Virus record (IMG/VR): IMGVR_UViG_3300032087_005744
Span: 1 to 27,640 of that record
Source of the DNA: a virus
Length of the DNA stretch: 27,640 nucleotides
Direction: 5' to 3' (one strand)
Each line of letters begins with the position of its first letter. Within the stretch, counting starts at the first letter, position 1. A program made the translations under genes and the position numbers. Shown piece by piece: positions 516 to 22,002 of this stretch. The notes under the pieces are model-generated. The model did no database searches. It was not told where the DNA came from and saw only the letters and a list, made by a program, of their open reading frames with translations.

Positions 516-1907
516 CTAATTTCCTCCGTTTCCTTCTTTACTACTCTTTTTAAAGACTGCGTATTTTTGCTTCAAATTGTCTAACCTCTCTTTAGAGGAC
601 CTTTCCACTATCTCACCTATAGACTCGTTTGTCTTATTTAGGACTTTTATTTTTACATTGCTCGTATCCATAAAAATAGGAAATATTAAACCGTCGGGCC
701 CATTCCTGTTTTTAGCAAGAAAGATGCGACCCTGATTGGTATTCTTATCCTCAATCGTTCTTGAAACAGTAAAAATAAAGTCTGCGACAAAACACTTATT
801 GAACGCCTCTGATATCGATTCCATTGTTATTACTTCGGCATTCAACCCAGACCTATTCGTTTGTGATGCGGTCCACACAGGGCAACCACATTCTTGTGCT
901 AAGCCTCGCAACTCTTCGTAAATAGTCTCTAGTTGGTGCCTTTTTTCTGTCTTATTCGAAGATTCTGGCTTAATCAAATCTCCATAATCTATGATTATCA
1001 TGTCGGGCGTGAAATCTCTTCTTCGTAACTTATCGATATGATTTCTAATTGTCTGAATCGTTGCGGACCTAGTTGGATATTCCTTTACGATCAATTTTCC
1101 TGTCAAATCTTTGATTTCATCATAAATCTTTTCTTTAAAAACCGCTAGATTCTTTAATTCAACACCTGTTATAGATGAATCGTATCTACTGGCCACAATA
1201 GTGTCTGCTAGCTCTAGCGTATAGTGCAGTACGTTCTTGCCTTGCTTAAGTGCTTGGGCGCCCAAATGAACCAAAACCATTGACTTGCCGGCACCAGTAG
1301 GTGCAACAACGACACCTAACTCGCCCTTTCCCAAGCCGCCCTTTGAAATGTCGTCAATCTGTTGCCATCCAGTTGAAATCGGATCTCGAGCACGGATTTC
1401 AAACCTCTTTTCAAAGTCCGCAATATATTCATACCCAAAAGAGTTATCAGAACCCAGCTTTAAAGCCCCGTCAATAATTTTAGACACTTCATCAAAAGAT
1501 GAAGACTTAATGAGATCAACTGATTTGATAAGTGCTTCTTTTAATTTTTGCTTTTTACAGAAATCAAGCGCAGTATCTTTGATATATTCAGAAGAGTTTG
1601 GGATGTGGCCTTTTGCCAGAACCCTTGCATAATACTCCCTGATTCGCACCTTGATTGATTCTGGTTCTGCATCCAAACCTGTTCGTATGATGGAATGCAT
1701 AATATTAGATGTAGGGTGGACTCCATACTTCTTTCTATACTCCTTGATCTTTTTGACGAAAACTCTAAGATGCTTCAACTCAAGGAAGTTGACGTCTAGA
1801 ACCTCAAACATCTGATCAGCAAATGGCCTATCATTTAAGACAAGATGACACAAATCTTCCTGAAAAGATTTTCCAAATTTTGAAAAACTGACTGTTGTAG
1901 GTTCCAT
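516..1907 (-). CDS. dnaB: Replicative DNA helicase, DnaB/T4 gp41 type
   Basis: A 463-residue hexameric helicase that would unwind DNA 5'-3' ahead of the phage replisome. The RecA-like C-terminal domain begins at STGWQQID near residue 178. Walker A is APTGAGKS at 202-209, the catalytic Glu candidate is in TLELAD (E232), Walker B is MIIIDYGD at 303-310, a Gln-bearing sensor motif ASQTNR is at 347-352, and a likely arginine-finger region is LAKNRNGPDG at 397-406. The roughly 160 residues in front have the size of a DnaB N-terminal domain but little recognisable sequence. The C-terminus is Lys/Gly rich. The start is an ATG preceded by GGGAGATC. It lies between the 5' nuclease and the ribonucleotide reductase in the replication block, and an extended -10 promoter sits just upstream. 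No separate primase is visible in the window, so priming must be encoded elsewhere or by the host. Confidence 0.93.
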   Translation of the reverse strand: MEPTTVSFSKFGKSFQEDLCHLVLNDRPFADQMFEVLDVNFLELKHLRVFVKKIKEYRKKYGVHPTSNIMHSIIRTGLDAEPESIKVRIREYYARVLAKGHIPNSSEYIKDTALDFCKKQKLKEALIKSVDLIKSSSFDEVSKIIDGALKLGSDNSFGYEYIADFEKRFEIRARDPISTGWQQIDDISKGGLGKGELGVVVAPTGAGKSMVLVHLGAQALKQGKNVLHYTLELADTIVASRYDSSITGVELKNLAVFKEKIYDEIKDLTGKLIVKEYPTRSATIQTIRNHIDKLRRRDFTPDMIIIDYGDLIKPESSNKTEKRHQLETIYEELRGLAQECGCPVWTASQTNRSGLNAEVITMESISEAFNKCFVADFIFTVSRTIEDKNTNQGRIFLAKNRNGPDGLIFPIFMDTSNVKIKVLNKTNESIGEIVERSSKERLDNLKQKYAVFKKSSKEGNGGN

Positions 1908-1947: not shown

Positions 1948-2913
1948 TTAATCTGAAAAGGAAGTGATAATGTCATTAAATTTTTGCTCTAGGTCTGACA
2001 TATTCACTGTTAACACACCATCTTGCAGCATCAATTTTCTCACTTCAGTTTGGTTATAATGTGGCTGATACTCTTCAAGAGTTTGATCTATCCTGGTTTT
2101 ACACTGGATAGACATTTGTGGTGAAGAAAGTTGCATAATATCATAGTTTTCCTTGATTATTTCTTCAGATTCCAGCACATTTTGATATACCTTTAGTTTA
2201 TTATTGTTGGAATCAGATGATTCGTCCAGAATATCAGATATGTAATAATCCTTATCTTCTTTTAAGAAAGGGAATCGTTTTGCAACGGTGCCCAATCCTA
2301 CTCTAGGCACACCTGCAAGATTGTCGCTTGGGTCACCTGCCATAGCTCGAGCCAGAGCAAAATTCCTAGGATGAATACCATACTTCTCGATAACGATGTT
2401 CGTATTTAACACCTCTTTTTGAATTGGCCTAAACAAGAGTGTCCTGTCATCCAACAATTGAATGAAATCTTTGTCGGCTGAAACAATAACCTTTTGCCAT
2501 TCCTGAAATGTTGAAGAAGATTTAATGTAAGATATCACATCATCTGCTTCTACCTCTGGTTCCATGAACTGAATGATTGGCGTATGATTGAGATACTCTA
2601 TCACTCTGAGTTGCTGCCAAAGTTTGTTGTTATCTGTGTCTTGTGGCGTCATCCCATCAGAATCCCAATTGACCCTTAGAGGCTTTCTGCCAGCCTTATA
2701 ATTCTTGTTCATGGATCTGCGCTTTCGTGATCCGCCTTGTCCATCCCAAACCACCACAATCATATCTGGTTTTGTTTCCCGAGTGATCTTGTTCAGGATG
2801 TTAATAAAGGTACGCATTCCTCCAATGGGGTTTCCGTTCGGATTCTTGCTAGGATCTACGATATAACCTCGCAGAAACTGATTGAACGCATCTACAATCA
2901 TTACTCTCTTCAT
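1948..2913 (-). CDS. 5'-3' exonuclease / flap nuclease (PolI 5'-nuclease and T4 RNase H family)
   Basis: A 321-residue nuclease of the FEN/PIN fold that removes RNA primers and 5' flaps. The metal-binding acidic residues are in the expected order: D8 in VMIVDAF, D57 in VVVWDG, the cluster EPEVEADD at 118-125, D147 and D149 in SADKDF, and D194/D197 in GDPSDN. The helix-three-turn region follows as AGVPRVGLGTVAK (200-212). A basic arch-like stretch (GSRKRRSMNKNYKAGRK, 61-77) fits substrate threading. The length matches T4 RNase H (about 305 aa). The start ATG has GGAG ten bases upstream. It sits between uvsX and the helicase. The polymerase in this window has no 5'-nuclease domain, so this separate enzyme would supply that activity. 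Confidence 0.92.
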   Translation of the reverse strand: MKRVMIVDAFNQFLRGYIVDPSKNPNGNPIGGMRTFINILNKITRETKPDMIVVVWDGQGGSRKRRSMNKNYKAGRKPLRVNWDSDGMTPQDTDNNKLWQQLRVIEYLNHTPIIQFMEPEVEADDVISYIKSSSTFQEWQKVIVSADKDFIQLLDDRTLLFRPIQKEVLNTNIVIEKYGIHPRNFALARAMAGDPSDNLAGVPRVGLGTVAKRFPFLKEDKDYYISDILDESSDSNNNKLKVYQNVLESEEIIKENYDIMQLSSPQMSIQCKTRIDQTLEEYQPHYNQTEVRKLMLQDGVLTVNMSDLEQKFNDIITSFSD

Positions 2914-2962: not shown

Positions 2963-4105
2963 CTACTGAATCTCTTCGGAGAGATCTTCCGAATCGTAAA
3001 AATCAGTAGCGTTGCCTTGTCTATTCTTGAATTTCAGAATAACATCCTCGTCCATGATTGTCAAGACGCTTTTACGAAAATCTTCCTTTTGAAGCTTTTC
3101 TGCCCACTGCTTTCGCTGGAACTTTTCTTCTGAGCCATCATCCTTTACCAGAGCAAACCATGCTCCAGATTGCTTCAGTCTCTCAGAAACTTGAATTGCA
3201 TCAAACCAACTCTCCTCATCTTGAACGCCGATATCTTCATCACCCCAAAGAATCTTGAAGTTACAGGTTCTGCCGGCTGTACCAAAACGAGACTTCTCAA
3301 GCTTTACCTTGACCTCAGAGCCAATACGATATCCGTTTTCATCGGTAATAAAAGAGGCCTTTGCCTTTCGAGCAGTAAGCCAAACTCGGAGAGAGTAGGC
3401 ATATGACATTGCCTTGCCACCCGGAGTGAAATAAGGTGTAGTCATAGCCTCTGCAGGGGTTCGAGCTGCCATGTTTGTCTTCAACTGATTAAGAACCAGC
3501 AACGTTGCATTAGCATCTGCAATAGGGATAGTCAACTTGGCCATACCCTTCGACAGAATTCTTGGCTTTACGGCCATAGAAGACTGAGGGTTAAAGTCAC
3601 CCTCAACATCTGAAATGGAAGGCGTTAGCGCTAAAGAGTCCCAAATAAACAACCACTTGTTACCGGTGCTCAAAAGCTCTTCCATAGTCTCTAATACAAA
3701 CTCTACTGACTCCGCTTGAACATACATGAGCCTCTCGAGATCACATCCTGCTCTCTCCAGAAAACTAGGGTCCAGAGCAGATTCTGAATCGAAATAAACA
3801 ACATCGATCCCCATCTTTTGGGCATTGCCAGCAATCTGTGCTGCCATAAATGACTTACCAGTTGCTTCCAGGCCGGCAATCTCTGAGATCTTGCCGACTG
3901 GAACACCCGCTAGTTTACCCTTGCAGATGATTGAATCTAACCACCTGGACCCCGTAGGGATCCATTCAGTGACTTCAGTTGGGTTATTATCTTGAAGAGA
4001 GTGTGCTACTTCTCTTCCTGCTTTCTTATTGATAATACCGCGAACGGCAGCAATATCAAGAGAGCCTTTACCCAATTTTGTAGTTTTTGTTTTTGCTCTA
4101 GCCAC
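2963..4105 (-). CDS. uvsX: UvsX-like recombinase (RecA superfamily)
   Basis: A 380-residue strand-exchange ATPase that forms filaments on single-stranded DNA and drives recombination-dependent replication and repair. Visible motifs are TGSRWLDSIICKG (51-63), Walker A GLEATGKS (78-85), the catalytic-Glu region YFDSESALD (104-112), Walker B WLFIWDSL (151-158) and the LLVLNQLK segment (202-209) ahead of DNA-binding loop L2, which contains YFTPGGKAM. The length is close to T4 UvsX (391 aa). The start is GTG, supported by AGGAG nine bases upstream. The gene follows the gp32-like gene after 11 bases, which suits proteins that compete and cooperate on single-stranded DNA. The C-terminus is acidic (DFYDSEDLSEEIQ), as is common in this family. 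No UvsY mediator is recognisable in the window. Confidence 0.93.
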   Translation of the reverse strand: MARAKTKTTKLGKGSLDIAAVRGIINKKAGREVAHSLQDNNPTEVTEWIPTGSRWLDSIICKGKLAGVPVGKISEIAGLEATGKSFMAAQIAGNAQKMGIDVVYFDSESALDPSFLERAGCDLERLMYVQAESVEFVLETMEELLSTGNKWLFIWDSLALTPSISDVEGDFNPQSSMAVKPRILSKGMAKLTIPIADANATLLVLNQLKTNMAARTPAEAMTTPYFTPGGKAMSYAYSLRVWLTARKAKASFITDENGYRIGSEVKVKLEKSRFGTAGRTCNFKILWGDEDIGVQDEESWFDAIQVSERLKQSGAWFALVKDDGSEEKFQRKQWAEKLQKEDFRKSVLTIMDEDVILKFKNRQGNATDFYDSEDLSEEIQ

Positions 4106-4116
4106 CGTTCTTGCTC

Positions 4117-4875
4117 CTATGAGTTCAAAAGATCGTTAAAAGCTGCTTCGACAGCATTTGCGGATCCTTCAATTTCTGTTGGTTTTCCATACTTTTCGAC
4201 TTCCGTATTTCCGGTTTCGCCTGACAGAAACTGATCCAGAATAGACTGGACCTCCTCTGTTGCCTTTCTTTCGAAAAGGGAATCAAAATCCGGAATAGTC
4301 TCGAGAAGTTCTGCACAACGCTCATCTCCACCGACTGCATCATCACAAAGAATGGTCTTTCGGGGGCGCGGTCGGATATCTGTTCGTGGGAAGCTGGCTC
4401 CAGGCAATTTCCCATACATCAGCTTCAAGTCGTTTCCATTTTCTGGATCTGTGATGTCTCCGTAGTCCGGGTCGAGCACGATAGTCAGAAGCTTTTCATA
4501 TGCCATCTTACCATATCCCCAAATACGAATCCCCTGGTCCTCTTCTCCTCTGACCAAAACAGGGGAAAAGAAACGCTGCTTTGCGAAAAGATCCTTGGCC
4601 TGGCGCTTACTCTCTTCAGTTCCCTCGTTCCAAAGCTGGTTTGCAAAGTTACAAACCGGGCAGTCATCTCCAAAGTTCCTCTTGGGGCATAAGAAGCCAG
4701 ATGTGCCAACGTTATAGTGGAAAAACCTCTCCTTGAAGGGGTCGCCGTCGGGAGTCGAAACGATCCTGACATTATTCTCTCCGTCTTCTGGGCGCCAAAA
4801 CTGATTCTTGGTGCTGTCACCCTTTCCATTCAACTTATCGAGCTTTGCTCGCATTGCGTCTAAATTAAGTGCCAT
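4117..4875 (-). CDS. 32: Single-stranded DNA-binding protein, T4 gp32 type
   Basis: A 252-residue helix-destabilising protein that coats single-stranded DNA at the fork and organises the helicase, recombinase and polymerase. The N-terminal stretch LDAMRAKLDKLNGKG resembles the basic cooperativity region of gp32. A zinc knuckle matches the His-Cys3 pattern of gp32: H53, C63, C72 and C75 within HYNVGTSGFLC and DDCPVC. The aromatic, basic core (FWRPEDGENNVRIV; RFFSPVLVRG; IRIWGYG) fits the OB-fold DNA-binding surface. The C-terminus is mildly acidic and ends FNDLLNS, usually the partner-binding tail. It is shorter than T4 gp32 (301 aa). The ATG has an excellent ribosome binding site (GGAGGT). 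The gene has its own strong promoter and a leader hairpin, in line with the autogenous translational control known for T4 gene 32. Confidence 0.93.
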   Translation of the reverse strand: MALNLDAMRAKLDKLNGKGDSTKNQFWRPEDGENNVRIVSTPDGDPFKERFFHYNVGTSGFLCPKRNFGDDCPVCNFANQLWNEGTEESKRQAKDLFAKQRFFSPVLVRGEEDQGIRIWGYGKMAYEKLLTIVLDPDYGDITDPENGNDLKLMYGKLPGASFPRTDIRPRPRKTILCDDAVGGDERCAELLETIPDFDSLFERKATEEVQSILDQFLSGETGNTEVEKYGKPTEIEGSANAVEAAFNDLLNS

Positions 4876-4957: not shown

Positions 4958-4986
4958 ATACTACTATATTTTTATTGTTCTGTCAA
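4958..4986 (-). promoter_or_regulatory. Strong sigma70-type promoter for the gp32-uvsX-replication block
   Basis: On the minus strand a perfect TTGACA (4981-4986) is followed after 17 bases by TAGTAT (4958-4963, 4/6 to TATAAT) in an A/T-rich spacer. The -35 overlaps the last codons of the tubulin-like gene, so the replication genes can be transcribed separately from the structural/polymerase operon upstream. Confidence 0.7.
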
Positions 4987-5820
4987 CTGTATTTTTGGAG
5001 AAAAATATTCGACATAAATGTAGTCGTTTTCGTATTGTGTCGAATAGATGCCAAAATAGGCTTTTCTTTCGTCTGCTATTCGGGCCTTGACGCTAGTGGT
5101 CAAATCCCTAAGTAGACTACCTTGTGTCTTTAGTTTTTCCTCATTAATACCAAGGTAGTATAACACCTCCACTTCTTGCTTAAAAGGAGAAAACATCCTA
5201 TCTTCACAATTGATGCTGCTGACACCAATGGTTCTTATTCTACAAGATTCCCTTATCTTTGAGAAGGTTGACATCACTGGTTTTGTGTTTTTGAAAAGCT
5301 CAATCATGTGATAGCTGTCACAAAAGATAGAATTTATCTGACTATAAAATTCGTAAATGTTTGCATCATCTCCTAAAAGATCTTGAAGGGTCTTGTTATC
5401 TACAACGGTAATATCCCTGAATAAGCCAGAACGCGCATATTCCTGTAGGACAGCTTTTACAACCTTTTCTTGCAAAAGCTGCTCATCTGAAAGAAAATCA
5501 AGAACCGGCTGAAAATAGACTACCCTTATGCTTGTTCCCTTCTTGTGAAGAGACTCTAAAATCTTTAGGCTCATAGCTGAGGTCTTTGAGGCTCCGCAGA
5601 CAAAAAAGGTGACTTCTTCCTTAATTTTGCCAAGAAACTTGATCTTACTCAGTAAATTTAAGTTTTCATATTGTTCTGCTGAGTCTAGCTCTGGAACAAT
5701 ATAAGTGTTTTTAGAATTTTCACCATTATTTTTGATTCTATAGATGTTGTATTGTTCATACTTTTCTAAAGAGGTCACAATGTTGCATGCTGCGTTACCG
5801 AGAGCCAAAATATTCTTCAA
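4972..5820 (-). CDS. Degenerate tubulin/FtsZ-superfamily protein
   Basis: This 282-residue protein follows the tubulin/FtsZ pattern. The N-terminal strand and loop NILALGNAACNIVTSL (3-18) mimics the T1 loop. TFFVCGASKTSAMSLKILESL (71-91) lies where the glycine-rich GGGTGSG loop belongs. A long helical region then leads to ITVVDNKTLQDL (137-148), which resembles the tubulin VDNEAIYDI strand. YSQIN (159-163) matches the YxxLN helix, so candidates for guanine-contacting residues (N142, Y159, N163) are kept with tubulin-like spacing. The phosphate loop has lost its glycines, and no NxDxxD-type T7 loop is evident, so GTP hydrolysis and ordinary polymerisation are doubtful. The start is TTG (overlapping the polymerase stop as TTGA), supported by AGGAAGG seven bases upstream. 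The coupling suggests a role alongside the polymerase. A Rossmann-type protein unrelated to tubulin is the alternative. Function is unknown. Confidence 0.6.
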   Translation of the reverse strand: MKNILALGNAACNIVTSLEKYEQYNIYRIKNNGENSKNTYIVPELDSAEQYENLNLLSKIKFLGKIKEEVTFFVCGASKTSAMSLKILESLHKKGTSIRVVYFQPVLDFLSDEQLLQEKVVKAVLQEYARSGLFRDITVVDNKTLQDLLGDDANIYEFYSQINSIFCDSYHMIELFKNTKPVMSTFSKIRESCRIRTIGVSSINCEDRMFSPFKQEVEVLYYLGINEEKLKTQGSLLRDLTTSVKARIADERKAYFGIYSTQYENDYIYVEYFSPKIQLTEQ

Positions 5821-6956
5821 ATTGTTACCTTCCTCATTTCTCCAAAATTCTTTCCAATACTCACGTTAGATAAGAACCTGCCAAAAAGATTTGTTTCAAA
5901 AATATTCTTTATCTCTTCTACGAGACAGGAATCTTCTCTAGCAAAATCAAGAACAACAGAGTCATGCATCGTAAAGGCAATAAAGCTTCTTTTTCCTCTT
6001 AAAAGTTTCATTATATCGTAAGCGTTACTCAATACTATATCACTAGTTGTTGATTGAAGCAAATAATTTAATGCTCTTCTTTCGTCTACAGGCAACCTTC
6101 TGCCAAATGGAGTTTGTATGGAATCGTTTACAAAATGTTCTAAATATGCTTTTTTATTATAGATTCTATCATAAACCTCATGCTCTGACTTTGGGTTATA
6201 CAGCCAGGCAAAAAACTGCTCTTTTGCCTGTTCTCTGGAAATCCAAGGCTCTATCTGTTTCGTGTTCCAAGAGTGTATATCTTCTTTGGGTTGCTCAACA
6301 CCAGAAAACGCTAACAGTGTTCTAATTTCAGCGCCATTTAAATCTAGCTCCAGATATAAATCATTTTTAGGCTTTATGTTTGATCTTTCGTTTTTATGTA
6401 AATTTAATACGGGAAATGATCCTTTTTTTGTTGCAAGTCTTCCAGTGGCAGAGGAGAACATATCGTACATCACCCTCTCGTCATTTCCAGAGACTTCGAT
6501 ATCCTGGTTTGCTATTTCTGATGTTAGGACGTGTATTTTGTGCAAAATATCATAGTCTGATGGCCTATCTATCTCTTTGGAAATACCCTTCATCGCTGAC
6601 TCTCTCAAAGTGAGCCACCTGTTTAAAAGATGATCAGGCAACAAATCATAGAAACACAGAGAAGCAAGGTCTATTTTAGCTGTCAAAGCTGCTTTTTTCT
6701 GCGATTCTATCGCTTCTGCAACGCTTTTCATGTATATTGGATCACTAGAGTATCCTTCTAGGGATTCCGATCGCAAATAAAGGCTTAAATAAGTATATTT
6801 AGCGTCTTCTTGTAGAATAGGCGAATGTTTCCAGGCAAAACTTGATTCTTTCAATATCTGCGAAAAACCCTCAAAGTAAACCTGACCTTCTGTGAAAATA
6901 CCTACACAATTGTTTTCGATATTAAGTGCTTGGATTATTCTCTCTTCTTGATTCAT
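5817..6956 (-). CDS. polA: Minimal family A DNA polymerase (PolA polymerase domain only)
   Basis: At 379 residues this is essentially the palm and fingers of a PolI-type polymerase. In order: SSATGRLATKKGSFPVLNL (168-186) corresponds to the TGRLSS...PNLQN region; motif A is YLELDLNGAEIR (201-212) with catalytic D205 plus E210 and R212; the fingers O-helix keeps R241, K245, F249 and Y253 in RxxxKxxxFxxxY register; RRALNYLLQSTTSDI (293-307) matches the helix with RAxNxxxQGTAAD; motif C is FTMHDSVVLDF (328-338) with D332. The roughly 160 N-terminal residues are too short for a 3'-5' exonuclease plus full thumb and show no exonuclease motifs, so proofreading must come from elsewhere or be absent. 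It starts 35 bases inside the upstream gene without a clear ribosome binding site, so its expression depends on that gene's translation. T4 uses a family B polymerase (gp43). Confidence 0.88.
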   Translation of the reverse strand: MNQEERIIQALNIENNCVGIFTEGQVYFEGFSQILKESSFAWKHSPILQEDAKYTYLSLYLRSESLEGYSSDPIYMKSVAEAIESQKKAALTAKIDLASLCFYDLLPDHLLNRWLTLRESAMKGISKEIDRPSDYDILHKIHVLTSEIANQDIEVSGNDERVMYDMFSSATGRLATKKGSFPVLNLHKNERSNIKPKNDLYLELDLNGAEIRTLLAFSGVEQPKEDIHSWNTKQIEPWISREQAKEQFFAWLYNPKSEHEVYDRIYNKKAYLEHFVNDSIQTPFGRRLPVDERRALNYLLQSTTSDIVLSNAYDIMKLLRGKRSFIAFTMHDSVVLDFAREDSCLVEEIKNIFETNLFGRFLSNVSIGKNFGEMRKVTI

Positions 6957-8097
6957 ATATACTCTTTATTATTTCCGCAGATATCTGCCCGATCTTACCT
7001 GTAGCTTGTTTTATACCATAGATCCTATAGTTTTGCAAGACAATTTCTTCATTTTGTCTGAAAGCTTCATCTGAATATTTTCCAAGCTCCATCATGCGGA
7101 CCATAAGTAAAAGGCTCAACCATTCCTCAGAAGAGAGCATCTCAATCTCTGGTCGGAACACATTACTGATCTCAGTTGAGGAGCTTCTATTATTATAGCG
7201 TATTTCTGTGAAGAATGGAACTTGTTTCTTTATATCGTTGTACGTTTTTATGACAAAGTCCTGCAAATCATATAAATCATCATCGTGAGATTTGAGGCGA
7301 TATATTGAATCCATGATTTTTTCTACATCATAAGGTGCCGCATTCTCATCCAAAGCTGCTCCAGCCTTCCGAATTCTAGTTTTTATTGTTGGGTGCTCCA
7401 AATTGGCGTGCAATCTCCAAGGGCTATATTTGTCGACAAAAAAACCGTTAGAAGAAGCATAGTCCAAAAAACATTGGAAATTAGGGCTTTGTATTATTTC
7501 ACCTTTCTCGAAATCACTATTGTAATCCAAATTCGATAGTTCTACGGACAATCCAGAAGTTCTAATATTATTGTGTCTCGAAAGTATGAATCCGCTCCTC
7601 GTTACCGGGAATGCGTTAATGTGGGTTTTCAATAATTGCTTTAAAGCAATCAAATAGCATCTGTAGTCATTAACGGTGCGGTCATTCTGCAATAGAGAAG
7701 AATACTTGATAGAAACATAGGTCAAATAATCGCCATATAGCGGCTCTAAGGGCTCATATCCCAAAACCGGCACTACACCATCCAAAAAGGGTGGATACCC
7801 TCTTGTAGTGTTCTCAATGCGCGTGGTATAGTCGTTTCTAAAGGCATTGAATGCCTTCGCAACAAACCCAAGACATCTAACATCACTAGCTATATCTCCG
7901 ATTGAAATCATAACATCGGGGTCGTCAATCAAATAAACTGGCTCATAGTTCTTGTTGATCAGGCCATATGAGAAATTGTTGTATAACGTGTCGATCATCC
8001 CAGGAAAATCAACCAGAGTCTTATATTTAAGCCTCTCACTAAACTCTGCTTTAAGCGTAGAAGTAGAACCGCCTAAAAATGTTATTTTTTCAGCCAC
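6922..8097 (-). CDS. Conserved-looking protein of unknown function between hub and polymerase
   Basis: 391 residues, not identified. No signal peptide, membrane segment, Walker motif or nuclease DxE pattern is visible. The most distinctive part is the middle (about 165-235): TRSGFILSRHNNIRTSGLSV, then SPNFQCFLDYASSNGFFVDK followed by YSPWRLHANLEHP. I associate this 'FFVDxxxPWRLxANLxxP' style of segment with uncharacterised, probably virion-associated proteins of marine T4-like phages, but that is from memory only. The C-terminal part is helical and charged. The start is GTG, seven codons' worth of sequence away from nothing better, and it overlaps the end of the hub-like gene by 8 bases. Its 3' end overlaps the polymerase gene by 35 bases. 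Context allows either a baseplate or tail component or a replication accessory factor; I slightly favour structural. Confidence 0.6.
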   Translation of the reverse strand: MAEKITFLGGSTSTLKAEFSERLKYKTLVDFPGMIDTLYNNFSYGLINKNYEPVYLIDDPDVMISIGDIASDVRCLGFVAKAFNAFRNDYTTRIENTTRGYPPFLDGVVPVLGYEPLEPLYGDYLTYVSIKYSSLLQNDRTVNDYRCYLIALKQLLKTHINAFPVTRSGFILSRHNNIRTSGLSVELSNLDYNSDFEKGEIIQSPNFQCFLDYASSNGFFVDKYSPWRLHANLEHPTIKTRIRKAGAALDENAAPYDVEKIMDSIYRLKSHDDDLYDLQDFVIKTYNDIKKQVPFFTEIRYNNRSSSTEISNVFRPEIEMLSSEEWLSLLLMVRMMELGKYSDEAFRQNEEIVLQNYRIYGIKQATGKIGQISAEIIKSIYESRRENNPST

Positions 8098-10879
8098 GTC
8101 CTCTTAATCTCCCCGTAACATCTCTACCTATAACTAGAACTACTGCCTTATCTTGTGGCCTCGAATCGTCAATCTCAACTATCTCTCCTCTTACTAGGTT
8201 GTACCTAACGGCTCCTGAATTGATATTTTTACTCTTGTCAATAACTCCTGGGATGGAAGATCTAGTCGTTTCTTGATTTAGAATATAGTCATTGGAAATC
8301 TGTCTCGCAAGGGTACTGTCCATAACTCTTTCACCAGTGAGGGGATCGGTCAAGCTTTCCAGTTGGTTGACATAATTAACTTGAGATACGTTGGGCAAAT
8401 CCGTAGACAAGGGAGCAGGGTCGCCTGGGATTGCGTCATTACTAGGTCTTACCTTGTTTATAAAGTCGATAGTCCTTGGAGACATCTCGACTCCTGATAG
8501 GCCCAATTGATCCCCAACTGGTGCGCCAAAGGAGCAATCAAGATCCGTGCTCAGCACACCATTGGAAAACGTGGTTTTCACTCCTAGTACTGAATAATAC
8601 CCGCCCAAACCTATCTTGAAGGCCGGGGAGTCAGTGTCAGTGGGCGAACCAAATCCAATATTATTGGGGTTTATAAATATTTGACTCCCCGGAAAAAACA
8701 AATTGTTTCCAATCATAGAGATGCTAGCCTGGTATGGCATTTTAAGTTCATCATACAATCCGACTTGATTTGTCATTAACTGCTCTTGTGCAAAAGGTAC
8801 ATCAAATCTACTAAAATTTATTTCTTTTATTAATCCTCGATTCTTTCCCAATAAGAAATGATAAATACCGTCTCTAGAATCCTTATCTTCATTGCCGGCA
8901 CGATCAGAGGCTAATTCTCTATCAACTTTTTGAAAAATGACAAAATAATCATTTTCGTCTGTTATCCCTAAAGCTCTAAAGTCTTTCTGAGGGCTGGGTA
9001 CTGCTTCTGGATCAAGATCTGCACTCTTTGCTATGGCGCTCCTAAGTTGTGGACCAGTGTATGTCGCAGATACAAAGCTTGGGGGCGCTGATATAATTTG
9101 AGGCGCTATTCCTACATTAGACCATGCTCTACCGAAAGCGTTTGGCAATAGAGTCGAAATACAGTCATTTAAAAACTGTGGTACCGTATAAGTGTTCCTA
9201 TACGAGTTAATGATTTTGTCATACATGAATTCCTGGTATAGTTCCAATGACACTGGTATATCGGCTATATTTATTCTTGCCATTTCCTCATCCCCTGATG
9301 AGGTGTGGTGCTTATATTCAATATCCGCCATGAACACTTTAAAAGTTGTCAGCTTCTTTATTGCTCCATTTATGACCGCTATTATTTTGTTTTTTTCATC
9401 CTCTGATTTTTTCGAAATAGCTAACAGATCCTTAAACTCGTTCTCTGTGACTTTTAAGGAGGTGGCGAGAGCTTTTCTAAATTGTTGATCTCTGTCTTGG
9501 ATGTCTTTAGGGATCAATGGTAACTTTTTTAGCAATTGCGCCGACTCTTTGAGAGACTCTTTTGTCTTTAAAAAGAATGCCTCTATCAGATCCCCGAACA
9601 AAACATAGTTTATTGTCCTGTTTGAATTATCCAGATCGTTTATCATTTTAGTTAATTCTTCGGATTTTCGGTTTTCATTTTCGATCTGGTCCTTTGGGGG
9701 TTCTTGCGACTTTCCTGTCAAACTAGTTGATGCTTCTGTGGGCGCCGTTGCCGTAGTGTCACCCATGACAGTGTATTCTAGCATCTTCAGATCATTATCG
9801 GAAGTCTTTGTCACCAAAGAATGTATTTTGTTTTTAGACTCTAGAATTTCCATTATCTTTCTTATTTCTAGCGCCTTTTGTATTTGGCTCCTCCTTGAAG
9901 ACCCTGGAGTCTCTGGCTTATCTTTCTTGTCTAGAGAGTCTGTGTTTTTACCCTCTGAGGAGAAAAGTTGCCTTATATTTGCCCTTTTCAATAAATCAGT
10001 CGGAGTGTCTGTTGAGCTAAATATTTTATCTCTGGCTGTATTATTTATTCTAGCTGTATATTCTATATTTATCTCTGCAGATCCATCTTGTTTGACCTTG
10101 ATGTCGTGCTTTATAACGTTCATGCGAAGGGCCAAATTTGAACTTTGGATCTCCCTTATTTCCTCTTGTGTGAACAAACTCAAACTTGAAGGAGGGATGC
10201 TGTACCCTAAAGTAGCTGCTACTTCAATAGGCCGCTCCAAATCACCAGACGTAACTGTTGCTCCATTAACTTCCTTTTTTTGTGCGCTCCTGGCAATAGA
10301 AATCGTAAATAAATCAGCTAATCTTGCATAACCAGGCTGTTTATCAAATATATTAGCCAAGTTATCCACATATAGTTGTAAATCCGCTTTCAAAAACCTT
10401 GGGGCTGTAAATGGATCTGTACCCAGGAAATCAACAGAAAAAGTTTTCACTCCCGAAGCCTTGAGTCGGCTACGCCCCTGTAGTGTCGCTGCTTCGTCAC
10501 CCAAAGAAGATATAGGAAAAAAGAAAGGAGTATATATGTCGTCCTGCACCAAAAAAAACCTTATTTCTGGTACCAATGCAGTAATCTTGTGAGTCTCAAG
10601 ATTAAAAAAATGTGCTTTTATAAGCTTTTCACCTGCAGAGTCCCTTGAGTTGTATATTTTAGACATAACTGACTCTGGACGATAGCTGCCAACCAGCCTA
10701 TGGATAGAAGTAGCGTCACCGCCAGGAGACAAATCGCTTGACTTTAAACCTGAAGACGCCCCCTCTGTTGAAGCTCTTTCTCCGAAGCCCAATCCGCCTC
10801 CCGAAAAATGCAGAAACATAAGAAAAGCCTGCGGGTGGAAATGGTTTAAAATAAATTCTGATTTTTCTTTAACTGACAT
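8090..10879 (-). CDS. Large baseplate/hub-like virion structural protein
   Basis: A 929-residue protein placed right after the gp53-like wedge gene, without signal peptide or membrane segments. The C-terminal third is the most informative. PYQASISMIGNNLFFPGSQI, a nearby FINPNNIGFG, and then KIGLGGYYSVLGVKTTFSNG with LSTDLDCSF resemble the repeated beta-barrel segments of tail hub proteins (T4 gp27 / gpD-like), where 'PGS.I...P...GLGGYY.V..V' recurs. The middle (about 330-520) is charged and Lys/Glu rich with likely coiled coil. The N-terminus starts MSVKEKSEFILNHFHPQAFL and includes a Gly/Ser-rich stretch. It is about 2.4 times the length of T4 gp27, so fusion with another baseplate function is possible. 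No lysozyme active-site motif was recognised. It starts one base after the gp53-like stop and overlaps the next gene by 8 bases. Confidence 0.65.
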   Translation of the reverse strand: MSVKEKSEFILNHFHPQAFLMFLHFSGGGLGFGERASTEGASSGLKSSDLSPGGDATSIHRLVGSYRPESVMSKIYNSRDSAGEKLIKAHFFNLETHKITALVPEIRFFLVQDDIYTPFFFPISSLGDEAATLQGRSRLKASGVKTFSVDFLGTDPFTAPRFLKADLQLYVDNLANIFDKQPGYARLADLFTISIARSAQKKEVNGATVTSGDLERPIEVAATLGYSIPPSSLSLFTQEEIREIQSSNLALRMNVIKHDIKVKQDGSAEINIEYTARINNTARDKIFSSTDTPTDLLKRANIRQLFSSEGKNTDSLDKKDKPETPGSSRRSQIQKALEIRKIMEILESKNKIHSLVTKTSDNDLKMLEYTVMGDTTATAPTEASTSLTGKSQEPPKDQIENENRKSEELTKMINDLDNSNRTINYVLFGDLIEAFFLKTKESLKESAQLLKKLPLIPKDIQDRDQQFRKALATSLKVTENEFKDLLAISKKSEDEKNKIIAVINGAIKKLTTFKVFMADIEYKHHTSSGDEEMARINIADIPVSLELYQEFMYDKIINSYRNTYTVPQFLNDCISTLLPNAFGRAWSNVGIAPQIISAPPSFVSATYTGPQLRSAIAKSADLDPEAVPSPQKDFRALGITDENDYFVIFQKVDRELASDRAGNEDKDSRDGIYHFLLGKNRGLIKEINFSRFDVPFAQEQLMTNQVGLYDELKMPYQASISMIGNNLFFPGSQIFINPNNIGFGSPTDTDSPAFKIGLGGYYSVLGVKTTFSNGVLSTDLDCSFGAPVGDQLGLSGVEMSPRTIDFINKVRPSNDAIPGDPAPLSTDLPNVSQVNYVNQLESLTDPLTGERVMDSTLARQISNDYILNQETTRSSIPGVIDKSKNINSGAVRYNLVRGEIVEIDDSRPQDKAVVLVIGRDVTGRLRGRG

Positions 10880-10880
10880 T

Positions 10881-11228
10881 CTATCTTTCTCTTGTGGCTA
10901 TTCTCAATGCTACGTCTAACTCTTTTGGAATGTAAACAATATCTCCAATTTTGAAATGCGCATCAGTTGGCTTGTTATTATACCACGCAATAATCCACCA
11001 ATAATCAACATTTCCATAATATTCATAGGCAAACTTGTAAAGTTTATCTCCAGTCGAATAAATTCTTTGAATCGAAGTGAGGTTTTGCCTCAGTTCCTCC
11101 TCTGTTGGGTCTCCTGATGGCATTCTTGATAAAATTTTAGTAGTTTCTATGAATCGTCTATCGTGAACGGTATTTCTATGAAATTTATCAATGATTTCAG
11201 TAAATCTGTATGTATTTCTACTGGTCAT
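10881..11228 (-). CDS. 53: Baseplate wedge protein, T4 gp53-like
   Basis: 115 residues. The C-terminal half, GDKLYKFAYEYYGNVDYWWI followed by AWYNNKPTD and KIGDIVYIP, is typical of gp53, whose fold resembles a LysM module with the pattern 'GDxLxxIAxxxYGxxxxWWxIxxxN...P...GxxIxIP'. In T4, gp53 joins wedges into the hexagonal baseplate around the hub. The N-terminal half (TYRFTEIIDKFHRNTVHDRR) is basic and probably forms the wedge contact. T4 gp53 is 196 aa, so this is a compact version. The ATG is preceded by AGGA. It sits 15 bases after the gp48/54-like gene and one base before the large hub-like gene, as expected for a baseplate cluster. A LysM cell-wall protein is less likely because there is no signal peptide and the context is structural. 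Confidence 0.8.
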   Translation of the reverse strand: MTSRNTYRFTEIIDKFHRNTVHDRRFIETTKILSRMPSGDPTEEELRQNLTSIQRIYSTGDKLYKFAYEYYGNVDYWWIIAWYNNKPTDAHFKIGDIVYIPKELDVALRIATRER

Positions 11229-18372: not shown

Positions 18373-21300
18373 TTAGGCCTTAATGTACTTGACAACAACC
18401 TCATCTGCAGCCACTAGGCTGTTTGCACCAGCGAGTGAGAGGGTTGTGTTGCCTGTACCGCCAAGAGCGTAATCGTAGTCCTGCGACTGCATCATACCAT
18501 TGACGAATACGAAAACAGATCCTGTAGAAGCAGGTGCCTGTGAAAGGGTACCAACAGTACCACTAACTGCGACGTCAGAGCCAGTGAAGCGGTCCTCGAT
18601 TGAAAGAATCGACATAACGCCACTTGAAACCTGAAGACCGTCACCAGCCTGGAAGCTGGAGATATCATCAATGCTCTCAAGCTGATGGGTGCTGCCATCA
18701 GAATCCAACATCAAGAACTTGTCGCCAGAGGCAACCGCAACATCACTGTACTCGGAAATGTCAAGCTCAAGTGCGCCACTCGAAGCAGCAATACCGTCTC
18801 CTGCGATAGCAGTAGCGTAGTCAGCCAAGCTCTCCTTCTTGGTGCTGTTGTCTGTAGCATCAACAAACAAGAAGCTGTCAGCCGATGCGTCAACGTCTGC
18901 TGCTGAAATTTCGTTGAAATCTACAGCGAGAACACCACTAGAAGCACTAAGACCGTCACCAGCAGCTGCGGTCATGATGTCTGCAATGCTCTCCTTCTTT
19001 GTGCTGTTGTCTGTAGCGTCAATGATAGCAACACTGTCAGCGCCGACATCAACAGCTGCAGCAGCAAGATCATTGAGATCCAAGTTGACATCGTCGGCAT
19101 TAACCGAAAGACCACCGTTGCTAGCATTAACAACAGCAAGAACACCACTAGAAGCAGCAAGACCGGCGCCTGCCTGGAAGCTAGAAATGTCATCAATGCT
19201 TTCAAGCTGATGAGTGCTGCCGTCAGAGTCGAGCATCAAGAACTTGTCGCCCGAAGCAACTGCAACGTCGCTGTACTCAGATATATCAAGCTCTAGTGCG
19301 TGAGAGCTAAGTGCCAAACCATCACCAGCAATGCCAGAAGCCAACTGAACTTCGTCAGAAGCAATCTGGAAAGAAGTGCTGTTTGCCTGAACTGCAAGAA
19401 CACCACTGGAAGCTGCAAGAGCGTCACCAGCCATGAAAGTGGCGATATCATCAATGCTTTCCTTCTTGGTGCTGTCATCAGTTGCATCGTGGAAGACAAA
19501 CTTGTCACCAGAAGCAACAGAAGCATCAGAAATCTCAGAAGCGTCCATCGAGAGAACACCGCTAGAGGCAGCAAGACCATCACCAGCCATGAAGGTGGCG
19601 ATATCATCGATGCTTTCCTTCTTAGTGGTGTCATCAGTTGCGTCATGGAAGACGAACTTGTCGCCAGAAGCAACAGCTGCATCGGAAATCTCAGATGCAT
19701 CAACCGAGAGAACACCAGAAGAGTGCGCCAAACCGTTACCTGCAACATCGCTGGTAACCTTTGCAGAACCAGATGCAGAAAGCATATCAGCGCCGTCAAA
19801 CTTAACAACCTGGCCGGAAGCCATGTTGAGGTGATCGGAAAGATCCCAAGAATCAACACCGTCATAGAGGAACGAAGCCAACTCGCTTCCGCCCTCTCCC
19901 GCAATGTTGATGCCGGCACCGCCGGCAGCTGCAATCTGGCTGTCGTTCGAACCTGAAGCAAGAACCATTGCCTTATCGGCGATTGCTACGACAGTAGAAT
20001 CAACAGTTGTCGTCGTACCCTGAACTGTTAGGTCACCGCTCAAAGTAAGATCGGTAAATTGTGGGCTGTCGCCAGTACCGAGACCCAAGCTTGTACGAGC
20101 AGTGTTGCCGCTCTCATAAGCGAAAGCGCCAGCACCAGTAGCAACGATAAACTCACCGTCAGCTGAAGCGGCGCCGAGGCTGTCGAGGTCTTCTAGAACA
20201 CCGTCAACAGCGAACTGTCCACCAGAAGCAACAATACCGGTACCGGAAGCCATGGCAGAAGCTAGGTCTGCAATGCTTTCCTTCTTGGTGCTGTTGTCTG
20301 TTGCATCAATGATAGCGATGCTGTCAGCAGAAGCATCAACTGCAGCTGCAGCAAGATCATTAAGGTCAATGTTAATGTCATTAGCATTAACAGAAAGACC
20401 ACCATTAGTGGCATTGACAACAGCCATAACTGCCGAAGAAGCAGTCATACCAGCACCTGCGAATAGGGCTGCGATATCGTCAATGCTTTCCAACTGCTCG
20501 GTTGATCCATCGGAATCAAGAACAAGCAATTTGTCGCCCGAAGCGATCTGAACATCGGAGTATTCAGAAAGATCAAGACTCATAACACCACTGGAAGCAG
20601 CAAGACCTGCTCCAGCGAGGCCGGCAGCTACGTCGTCATTCAACATAGCGTCCTGAACAGCGTCATTGGCGATAGTAAGAGCACCACCAGCTGCGATTGT
20701 TGCGTCACCGGAAACATTTCCGAAGACTGCGTCCTCGAAGTCACTAAAAGTGATCTTCTTAGGAAGGTTGCTCGAGTCTGCATCTGCGAATGCAAGAACG
20801 TCAGTCTGAGCGATTGATGCGGCCGAAAGACCGGCAAGGTCAAGAACAAGTGCGGACTTAGCATCCGCCGAACCCGACAAACCACCTGACCCTGAAAGGG
20901 CAATCTGTCTTGCTGAAATTTGTAGTCGCTTAGCCATTGCGTTTCCTCCTCCAGATTCGGCTGCTCCGCCGGAAAAACTGGTTATAGATAGGTTAGTTGT
21001 ACTCGATGACTCAACATCACTGCTGTACTTCACCGAGGTTATTGTTGTGTTACCTGCTGTACCGTGATTATCATTAGTTAAACTTAACGTGCCAGCACTT
21101 GCTACCGCTGTTATCTGAATAGGCATGCTATTAATGATATCAGCAAGATATGCGGCCATGGCTGTTTCAGAGCCAGATGTAGAGTTGCCTGGTCCATACA
21201 TTCGTATGTCAGTTGAGTTGTTTTGGATCGAATACACAGGCTCGTCAGGGGCGCTAATCTTTGCAGTAACATACCCTGCACCGGTACCTGTTGTTATGTG

Positions 21301-22002
21301 ATTCCAGAAAACATCCTTACTTGTGTTTGACCAGGAGCCAGATGCTCTCTTTAGTCTTACCATCATAGGAGCCTTTGAGATACCGTTTGATTCTGCACCA
21401 ATTTGCAGATACGTGGTACTCAAGACTCTGAGGTAGGTAGAAGCATGAAGGCTCATATCTCCATCTGTTCTAGCCTGCTGTAGAATATACAGCATCTCAT
21501 TAGTGAAAGTCCCTGCCGCAAGTCCTGCTCCACTACTGCCGTAGGTGTTAAGCTCGTACTCGCCAGAAGAAACCTTTCGAGAATGTGTTGCATTTGTGAC
21601 GTCTGCAGTAAAGCTGGACGTATTAACAAATGTGACATTAACTGTGTTTCCATCATAGTCTTTAAATTCTAGAACTGCAGGTGTTGAACCGCCAGTAGAA
21701 ATATCCTGAAAAAAGGATGCATCTTGGCTCGCTGCTCCAAAATTTAGATACAAATAAGCAACATGATTTGCATTGGTTGTGTCATTACCATAAATTGTAA
21801 CAACCTTTGACGCATTGCCGTTAAAGATGTTGTTATTGTTCGATGTACCTAGGGCTGCTTGGTCTCCCAATGCACTACCAACAGTTTGCCCCATATAAAA
21901 TGTGACTTGACTGTGGCCGTTGCCCTGTCCATCATCAATGGTAATTCTTGCATGTCGCTCAGGTATGCCTGTAAAGACTATTTGTCCTGTTGCTTTTGCC
22001 AT
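18373..22002 (-). CDS. Long repeat-built virion protein (tail fibre/appendage candidate)
   Basis: 1209 residues in four parts. Residues 1-355 form an N-terminal region (GQIVFTGIPERHARITIDDG; later LTNDNHGTAGNTTITSV and FSGGAAESGGG) that resembles beta-rich domains found in phage structural proteins. MAKRLQISARQIALSG at 356 looks like a second N-terminus, with its own strong ribosome binding site. From about 460 to 1133 there are about ten units of roughly 52 residues of the form 'AGDGLAASSGVL...SGDKF...DATD.STKKESIDDIA', interrupted by a different module (FTDLTLSGDLTVQGTTTTVD). The C-terminus (about 1134-1209) is a small beta module ending ADEVVVKYIKA. The composition is Ala/Ser/Asp rich without Cys, as in fibrous appendages. 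It lies between the small-protein block and the sheath, with its own leader and terminator. Fibre or head/tail decoration are both possible; receptor binding is not shown. Confidence 0.75.
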   Translation of the reverse strand: MAKATGQIVFTGIPERHARITIDDGQGNGHSQVTFYMGQTVGSALGDQAALGTSNNNNIFNGNASKVVTIYGNDTTNANHVAYLYLNFGAASQDASFFQDISTGGSTPAVLEFKDYDGNTVNVTFVNTSSFTADVTNATHSRKVSSGEYELNTYGSSGAGLAAGTFTNEMLYILQQARTDGDMSLHASTYLRVLSTTYLQIGAESNGISKAPMMVRLKRASGSWSNTSKDVFWNHITTGTGAGYVTAKISAPDEPVYSIQNNSTDIRMYGPGNSTSGSETAMAAYLADIINSMPIQITAVASAGTLSLTNDNHGTAGNTTITSVKYSSDVESSSTTNLSITSFSGGAAESGGGNAMAKRLQISARQIALSGSGGLSGSADAKSALVLDLAGLSAASIAQTDVLAFADADSSNLPKKITFSDFEDAVFGNVSGDATIAAGGALTIANDAVQDAMLNDDVAAGLAGAGLAASSGVMSLDLSEYSDVQIASGDKLLVLDSDGSTEQLESIDDIAALFAGAGMTASSAVMAVVNATNGGLSVNANDINIDLNDLAAAAVDASADSIAIIDATDNSTKKESIADLASAMASGTGIVASGGQFAVDGVLEDLDSLGAASADGEFIVATGAGAFAYESGNTARTSLGLGTGDSPQFTDLTLSGDLTVQGTTTTVDSTVVAIADKAMVLASGSNDSQIAAAGGAGINIAGEGGSELASFLYDGVDSWDLSDHLNMASGQVVKFDGADMLSASGSAKVTSDVAGNGLAHSSGVLSVDASEISDAAVASGDKFVFHDATDDTTKKESIDDIATFMAGDGLAASSGVLSMDASEISDASVASGDKFVFHDATDDSTKKESIDDIATFMAGDALAASSGVLAVQANSTSFQIASDEVQLASGIAGDGLALSSHALELDISEYSDVAVASGDKFLMLDSDGSTHQLESIDDISSFQAGAGLAASSGVLAVVNASNGGLSVNADDVNLDLNDLAAAAVDVGADSVAIIDATDNSTKKESIADIMTAAAGDGLSASSGVLAVDFNEISAADVDASADSFLFVDATDNSTKKESLADYATAIAGDGIAASSGALELDISEYSDVAVASGDKFLMLDSDGSTHQLESIDDISSFQAGDGLQVSSGVMSILSIEDRFTGSDVAVSGTVGTLSQAPASTGSVFVFVNGMMQSQDYDYALGGTGNTTLSLAGANSLVAADEVVVKYIKA
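18601..20620 (-). repeat. Imperfect coding repeats, 156-bp unit, in the long virion protein
   Basis: The clearest adjacent copies start at 19431 and 19587, exactly 156 bases (52 codons) apart, with differences mostly at third positions. A larger composite unit (SEYSDV...SDGST.QLESIDD followed by VVNA.NGGLSVNA and LDLNDLAAAAVD) occurs twice, around 18970-19300 and 20260-20590, and its first half a third time around 18650-18790. About 540 bases of unrelated coding sequence (roughly 19720-20260) interrupt the array. Confidence 0.85.
20935..20952 (-). promoter_or_regulatory. Internal ribosome binding site and in-frame ATG within the repeat protein gene
   Basis: GGAGGAGG (20945-20952) is followed after seven bases by ATG (20935-20937), codon 356 of the long frame. 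Initiation here would give an 854-residue product starting MAKRLQISARQ. The site is as good as any genuine start in the window. It coincides with a Ser/Gly-rich domain boundary (AESGGGNA), where Gly codons could also create it by chance. Confidence 0.6.

Follow-up and report, generated by a model that had tools for sequence, protein, structure and literature searches.

Phage tubulins in the literature cited here either form GTP-driven filaments in jumbo phages or belong to partition systems. TubZ acts together with a DNA-binding adaptor, TubR, and hydrolyzes GTP. Recruitment of an unrelated enzyme fold to a family A DNA polymerase is also known: the accessory subunit of mitochondrial Pol gamma carries the fold of a class II aminoacyl-tRNA synthetase. 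The longitudinal contact of canonical tubulin protofilaments is formed by loop T7, the base of helix H8, and strand S9 (PMC3678025). Our survey of the open literature, in which few subscription papers or preprints were covered, did not uncover any account of polymerase coupling for a tubulin relative.

Here, we analyzed a 27,640-nucleotide stretch of viral DNA (the window; IMG/VR record IMGVR_UViG_3300032087_005744), in which a gene for a diverged tubulin/FtsZ-fold protein lies between the genes for a short family A DNA polymerase (PolA) and a gp32-like single-strand DNA-binding protein (SSB) (Table 1).

The replication block and the start of the tubulin-fold gene

The window represents part of the genome of a T4-like phage with a contractile tail and also encodes a T4-type baseplate protein, a tail sheath, and the gp23 capsid gene. 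The start of a ribonucleotide reductase alpha-domain protein is located right after dnaB (positions 2–514), with a match slightly below the Pfam cut-off. Upstream of polA are two conserved, fast-evolving proteins of 391 and 929 amino acids (6922–8097 and 8090–10879) without a family match. A 1209-amino acid protein (18373–22002) differs from the rest of the window in its raised GC content (0.50) and positive AT skew; its PHROG match is weak only.

The open reading frame of the tubulin-fold gene, its length, and the motifs quoted in the initial annotation lie where that annotation had placed them: NILALGNAACN at residues 3–13, VCGASKTSAM at 74–83, VVDNKTLQDL at 139–148, and YSQIN at 159–163. 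The TTG start codon (5820–5818) overlaps the stop codon of polA (5819–5817), and relatives carry AAAGGA or a similar sequence before a TTG or ATG at a similar position. The commonest arrangement of the two genes across the family is a 4-nucleotide overlap of start and stop codons (59 distinct members); in some branches, 0.3–2.5 kb separates polA from the tubulin-fold gene. Among 124 distinct members, 37 start with TTG, and these apparently make up most of the branch to which the window belongs. Initiation at TTG possibly sets a low ratio of the tubulin-fold protein to PolA.

Table 1 Features of the tubulin-fold gene and the surrounding replication block, in window positions
Feature	Positions	Strand	Evidence
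DnaB-like replicative helicase	516..1907	(-)	phrog_19 E 1.2e-78
Separate 5'-3' exonuclease of PolA type	1948..2913	(-)	Pfam 5_3_exonuc_N E 6e-28
UvsX-like recombinase, same replication block	2963..4105	(-)	phrog_97 E 8.2e-58
gp32-like single-strand DNA-binding protein, adjoining the tubulin-fold gene downstream	4117..4875	(-)	Pfam gp32 E 8.4e-12, phrog_1192 E 1.5e-24
Tubulin/FtsZ-fold protein, 282 aa, TTG start	4972..5820	(-)	ORF, AlphaFold2, Foldseek, family dN/dS
Short linker in place of tubulin T7 and H8, residues 178–194	5239..5289	(-)	Fixed length; both models
Y159..N163, start of core helix H7	5332..5346	(-)	Conservation and H7 in model
N142, predicted guanine contact (T6)	5395..5397	(-)	95% conserved; motif spacing
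T4/G-box position, residues 74–83, VCGASKTSAM (distant members GGSGDISGA)	5572..5601	(-)	Alignment
T1-like loop, residues 6–13, ALGNAACN (family consensus GLGxAGCN)	5782..5805	(-)	Aligns with PhuZ GGAGINIG
Short family A DNA polymerase, 379 aa	5817..6956	(-)	Pfam DNA_pol_A, phrog_17, catalytic motifs
Shine-Dalgarno-like GAGGAAGG within the 3' end of polA, 7 nt ahead of TTG	5828..5835	(-)	Sequence

Family, fold, and nucleotide pocket

Single-sequence searches revealed no relatives of the tubulin-fold protein in Pfam, PHROGs, NCBIfam, PDB sequences, or 50,697 phage records. A tblastn search of these phage records, which include PhuZ phages, with members of the family likewise gave no match, and no relative was found in cultured phages. 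IMG/VR contigs yielded 62 relatives at 45–100% identity. Use of the polymerase and SSB as starting points widened the set to 124 distinct full-length proteins, which an 80% identity limit reduced to 92 non-redundant members. One scan of genome contigs disclosed no cellular copies. The median dN/dS of the family is 0.077 (26 close pairs), a value that indicates strong purifying selection. The family represents a real, conserved protein; this ratio and the presence of the gene at every polA locus tested led us to discard the notion of a decayed remnant.

Two groups of database matches were set aside. Profile matches to designed PPR proteins are repeat artefacts in which each stretch scores less than 5 bits. 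Several INPHARED records labeled as phage (OR846604.1, MT835570.1, AFYI01000001.1, and others) contain an ordinary bacterial ftsZ and resemble contaminating bacterial contigs; E. coli FtsZ matches in these records served solely as FtsZ sequences.

Comparison of profiles by hhalign connected the family to the phage tubulin PhuZ, represented by seven sequences. The 92-member family aligned with this profile at a score of 44.7, whereas the scores of 40 column-shuffled PhuZ profiles did not exceed 20.6 (mean 14.6) and those of eight families of these phages without a relation to the protein did not exceed 19.4. A 40-member set scored 40.6 (unrelated families, 21.2 or less), which is level with the positive control of PhuZ against FtsZ by the same method (40.3). 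The hhalign probability for the alignment, which spans S1–S5, was 65–78%. Comparison with a shallow FtsZ profile brought the expected loops into alignment and scored 23.5, compared with 23.6 for its shuffles; because the score does not exceed the shuffles, we did not count the FtsZ profile comparison as evidence. The closest sequence relative found is PhuZ, not FtsZ, and PhuZ was reached through profiles only. The Pfam Tubulin model matched neither the window nor any of six large contigs. When Pfam models were compared with 40 members, weak matches to NAD-binding TrkA_N appeared in 14 (best E 0.0007, in one member) and to Tubulin in 7 (best E 0.019). Membership in an NAD(P)-binding Rossmann family did not emerge, the best folds being those of FtsZ and tubulin, and no enzyme family provided a convincing match.

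AlphaFold2, supplied with 40 sequences, folded the window protein at a pLDDT of 88.6 and a pTM of 0.88. With names assigned by correspondence with FtsZ, the elements of the model occur in the order S1, H1, S2, S3, H3, S4, H4, S5, H5, S6, H6, H7, S7, S8, H10, S9, S10, and the long core helix H7 comprises residues 155–177. The best 50 Foldseek matches to this model in the PDB are all FtsZ (E from 2.2e-12; TM by query no higher than 0.73). The top hit among predicted structures of viral proteins is UniProt A0A6J5RW92, a 452-amino acid annotated FtsZ of an uncultured Caudovirales phage (TM 0.77 by query); a tubulin encoded on a myovirus contig ranks second. A replicate model of a member with ~33% identity, folded together with distant relatives, reached a pLDDT of 95.7 and a pTM of 0.92; its best matches in the PDB are FtsZ, TubZ (4ei7, 2xka), and microtubule tubulin (E from 6.7e-13). 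The two-domain fold is present, with a nucleotide-binding domain formed by S1–S6 and H1–H6, the core helix H7, and a C-terminal domain formed by S7–S10; neither H8 nor H9 is present. FtsZ structures align along the entire chain, and thus also over the C-terminal domain that follows H7.

The likeness to tubulin that the initial annotation had read from a few motifs therefore lies beyond chance, given the margin of the PhuZ score over every shuffle and the agreement of the predicted fold. Two outcomes named in advance as contrary to it were a confident model devoid of the tubulin nucleotide-binding fold and profiles that lead to a Rossmann family of another origin. Neither occurred: the tubulin/FtsZ fold is seen in the confident model, and the profiles point to PhuZ. 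By fold and by homology, the window protein almost certainly belongs to the tubulin/FtsZ superfamily.

Conservation among the 92 members delineates the nucleotide pocket. G8 of the T1 loop is found in 100% and a glycine at position 11 in 82%; in the T4 loop, G76 is found in 99%, serine at position 81 in 76%, and glycine at position 82 in 61%. The residues proposed in the initial annotation as candidate guanine contacts are conserved: N142 is retained in 95%, N163 in 96%, and Y, F, or H at position 159 in 97%. By position and spacing, we take N142, Y159, and N163 to be the equivalents of N206, Y224, and N228 in the established tubulin structure; FtsZ has F..N/D in place of the latter two. Distant members contain GLGxAGCNIA, YKID, GGSGDISGA, and VDN...GYYDxLN, and resemble canonical tubulins more closely than the window protein does. 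The G-box signature GGGTG(S/T)G was not found in T4 of the family: the window protein has VCGASKTSAM, and GGSGDISGA of the distant members resembles the signature in part only. Because distant members read GGSGDISGASLRILEQL at the G-box position, loss of the G-box glycines is a trait of the branch. The initial description of a degenerate protein with a G-box devoid of glycines is thus accurate for the window's branch but does not extend to the nucleotide pocket of the family as a whole. At the end of helix H5 (window 5428–5445), Q126, R130, and S131 are 99–100% conserved among the 92 members. We know of no counterpart of these residues in tubulin; they perhaps constitute a partner-binding site.

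Loop T7, which was not evident in the window protein, is missing throughout the family. The NxDxxD motif occurs in 0 of 92 members, the segment that separates H7 from S7 (residues 177–194) is exactly 18 amino acids long in 92 of 92, and neither AlphaFold2 model contains a helix (H8) at this location. With T7 and H8 lost from the protofilament contact, it is unlikely that the family forms ordinary GTP-hydrolyzing filaments. Because T7, the loop that defines GTPase-active tubulins, was looked for and is absent, classification of the protein as a PhuZ, TubZ, or FtsZ would be inappropriate.

A short polymerase and its neighbor

The polymerase matches phrog_17 (E 2.8e-14) and Pfam DNA_pol_A (E 1.8e-6), the latter with 27.6 bits, which does not reach the cut-off of 34.3. 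Its length ranges from 353 to 414 residues in 119 relatives, and residues of motif A (D205, E210, R212), motif B (R241, K245, Y253), and motif C (H331, D332) are invariant in 21 sequences. No proofreading domain is recognizable in the polymerase, and 15 large contigs (127–194 kb) selected for carrying the replication block yielded no 3'-5' exonuclease of the DnaQ or PolA type; a minimal polymerase that could need a partner is therefore plausible. The large contigs also contain no family B polymerase and no psbA. Multi-subunit RNA polymerase was detected in 0 of these 15 contigs, which may be incomplete, compared with 14 of 14 controls, and for this reason we dismissed the idea that the protein is the PhuZ of a phage that forms a nucleus. 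A search with PF02916 (T4-type sliding clamp) matched no control.

The initial annotation called for a survey of the neighborhood of the short polA. All 54 independent polA loci for which the downstream sequence sufficed carry a homologue of the tubulin-fold gene, on the same strand and adjoining or close behind polA. When SSB was used as the anchor, 47 of 49 loci carry the gene; the exceptions are L163, in which it is located elsewhere on the same contig (L028), and L192, which is a short fragment. Exactly one copy is found in each of the 15 large contigs. No TubR-like neighbor was noticed among the conserved genes. Distances between the tubulin-fold proteins track those between the polymerases after the contribution of SSB and UvsX is removed (partial r 0.61), a correlation that may reflect only co-inheritance because linked genes share their history. 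At 83 loci with all four genes, the median distance of PolA and the tubulin-fold protein is 1.2–1.3, compared with 0.4–0.6 for SSB and UvsX. Insertions of ~1–3.6 kb, which are perhaps mobile elements, separate polA, the tubulin-fold gene, and ssb at several loci (L003, L037, L107, L128, L204, and others).

Among cultured phages, the replication block most closely related to that of the window is found in the 190-kb Microcystis phage Mel-JY01 (PP395634.1, L229, 9781–17576), in which polA, SSB, UvsX, exonuclease, and DnaB follow in the same order as in the window. The tubulin-fold gene is absent from the stretch read, and none of the genes located between polA and ssb proved to be a relative of it. 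Such a polymerase can thus do without the tubulin-fold gene, which was either gained in the marine clade or lost outside it; the phage may serve as a comparator. The 408-amino acid gene at 9781–11007 of Mel-JY01 is an unannotated, very diverged PolA.

Possible roles and comparison with known systems

We propose a model in which the diverged superfamily member, lacking T7 and H8, would bind guanine nucleotide without hydrolysis and would not form canonical filaments. The protein and the short PolA would be made together through translational coupling and would assemble into one replication complex, where the tubulin-fold subunit may serve as a PolA accessory that provides processivity, positioning, or a nucleotide-responsive clamp. 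Fold, family, loss of T7 and H8, conservation of the guanine contacts, linkage to polA, and purifying selection are supported computationally, and nucleotide binding, lack of hydrolysis, contact with PolA, and the accessory role are inferred from them. Adjacency of the genes does not imply contact between their products, and both the spacing of 0.3–2.5 kb in some branches and the lack of the gene in Mel-JY01 weigh against the model. We put the model forward tentatively, as a reading that falls somewhat short of being probable. The broader proposition, that a tubulin fold has turned into an obligate, non-polymerizing subunit of a replicative polymerase throughout a large clade of marine T4-like phages, is possible but more doubtful. 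The protein may also, as suggested in the initial annotation, act as a fork-associated scaffold or nucleotide sensor.

The main alternative is a cytoskeletal scaffold, in which static filaments containing guanine nucleotide as a structural component would hold or position replicating phage DNA and PolA would be cargo. Retention of the fold and pocket fits this alternative, as do the activities of the phage relatives PhuZ and TubZ, which position or segregate DNA (PMC4244570, PMC3678025), and the suggestion that the FtsZl1 family may build filaments by a novel mechanism after C-terminal losses (PMC2875224). However, T7 and H8, which belong to the longitudinal interface (PMC3678025), are missing in 92 of 92 members and in both models, and we noticed neither a DNA-binding adaptor nor a tail extension like those of TubZ and PhuZ. 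We therefore regard static filaments as unlikely, though worth weighing seriously.

An improbable alternative directs the protein at the host: a T7-less mimic would cap protofilaments of host FtsZ and thereby block division during infection. Phages attack FtsZ, as exemplified by T7 Gp0.4 (PMC4944311) and lambda Kil (PMC3961180), and an intact nucleotide face without a T7 face could conceivably cap a filament. An inhibitor of this type is difficult to reconcile with the fixed site between polA and ssb, with the predicted translational coupling to polA, and with PhuZ rather than FtsZ as the closest sequence relative found. Little credence can likewise be given to a sensor of nucleotides or dNTPs, or a small enzyme, built on the Rossmann-like half, that would neither form filaments nor contact the polymerase. 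The excess of weak TrkA_N over Tubulin matches and the ribonucleotide reductase fragment behind dnaB are compatible with such a protein, but the full chain including the domain after H7 aligns with FtsZ, the conserved N..Y..N set suits guanine binding of the tubulin type, and enzyme families lack a convincing match. Finally, an unrelated Rossmann-fold protein with a convergent or accidental likeness to tubulin would agree with the silence of the Pfam Tubulin model and the FtsZ profile score, but is very improbable in view of the PhuZ comparison, far above every shuffle, and of two independent confident models whose best full-chain matches are in the tubulin superfamily.

In every examined genome of a diverse group of ocean phages, a tubulin fold has been retained under strong selection after the loss of T7 and is locked to polA. 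This pattern is suggestive of recruitment of a cytoskeletal fold to virus DNA replication. Binding to the polymerase would give the tubulin fold a role in DNA synthesis itself; static filaments, if formed, would show how a replication site could be organized without GTP turnover. Either reading offers a single-gene test of the purpose of the tubulin pocket once hydrolysis is lost.

Among known systems, PhuZ (TubZ of phage phiKZ and relatives) is similarly phage-encoded, shares the tubulin fold and a T1 loop resembling GGAGxNIG, and exhibits profile homology over S1–S5. It differs in having T7 with a catalytic aspartate, H8, helix H11, and dynamic filaments (PMC3678025), and in residing in nucleus-forming jumbo phages with the multi-subunit RNA polymerase not found in the 15 large contigs. 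FtsZ provides the best structural matches in the PDB and the same order of elements from S1-H1 to H7 and in S7–S10; in contrast to FtsZ, the family lacks the T7 NxDxxD motif, H8, H9, and the C-terminal tail, with ~8–15% identity and a weak profile match. TubZ of Bacillus plasmids and a clostridial phage is a structural match (4ei7, 2xka) and likewise serves extrachromosomal DNA, whereas the neighbors of the tubulin-fold gene are PolA and SSB. FtsZl1 (Makarova and Koonin 2010) is also a highly diverged branch of the superfamily with unrecognizable C-terminal elements (PMC2875224). Unlike the phage family, FtsZl1 retains GGGTG(S/T)G, has no recognizable T6-H7, and is a cellular protein encoded in vWA membrane-remodeling operons (PMC2875224); both families have lost elements, but different sets. 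The accessory subunit of Pol gamma is a precedent by role only, since its origin is an aminoacyl-tRNA synthetase and not a tubulin.
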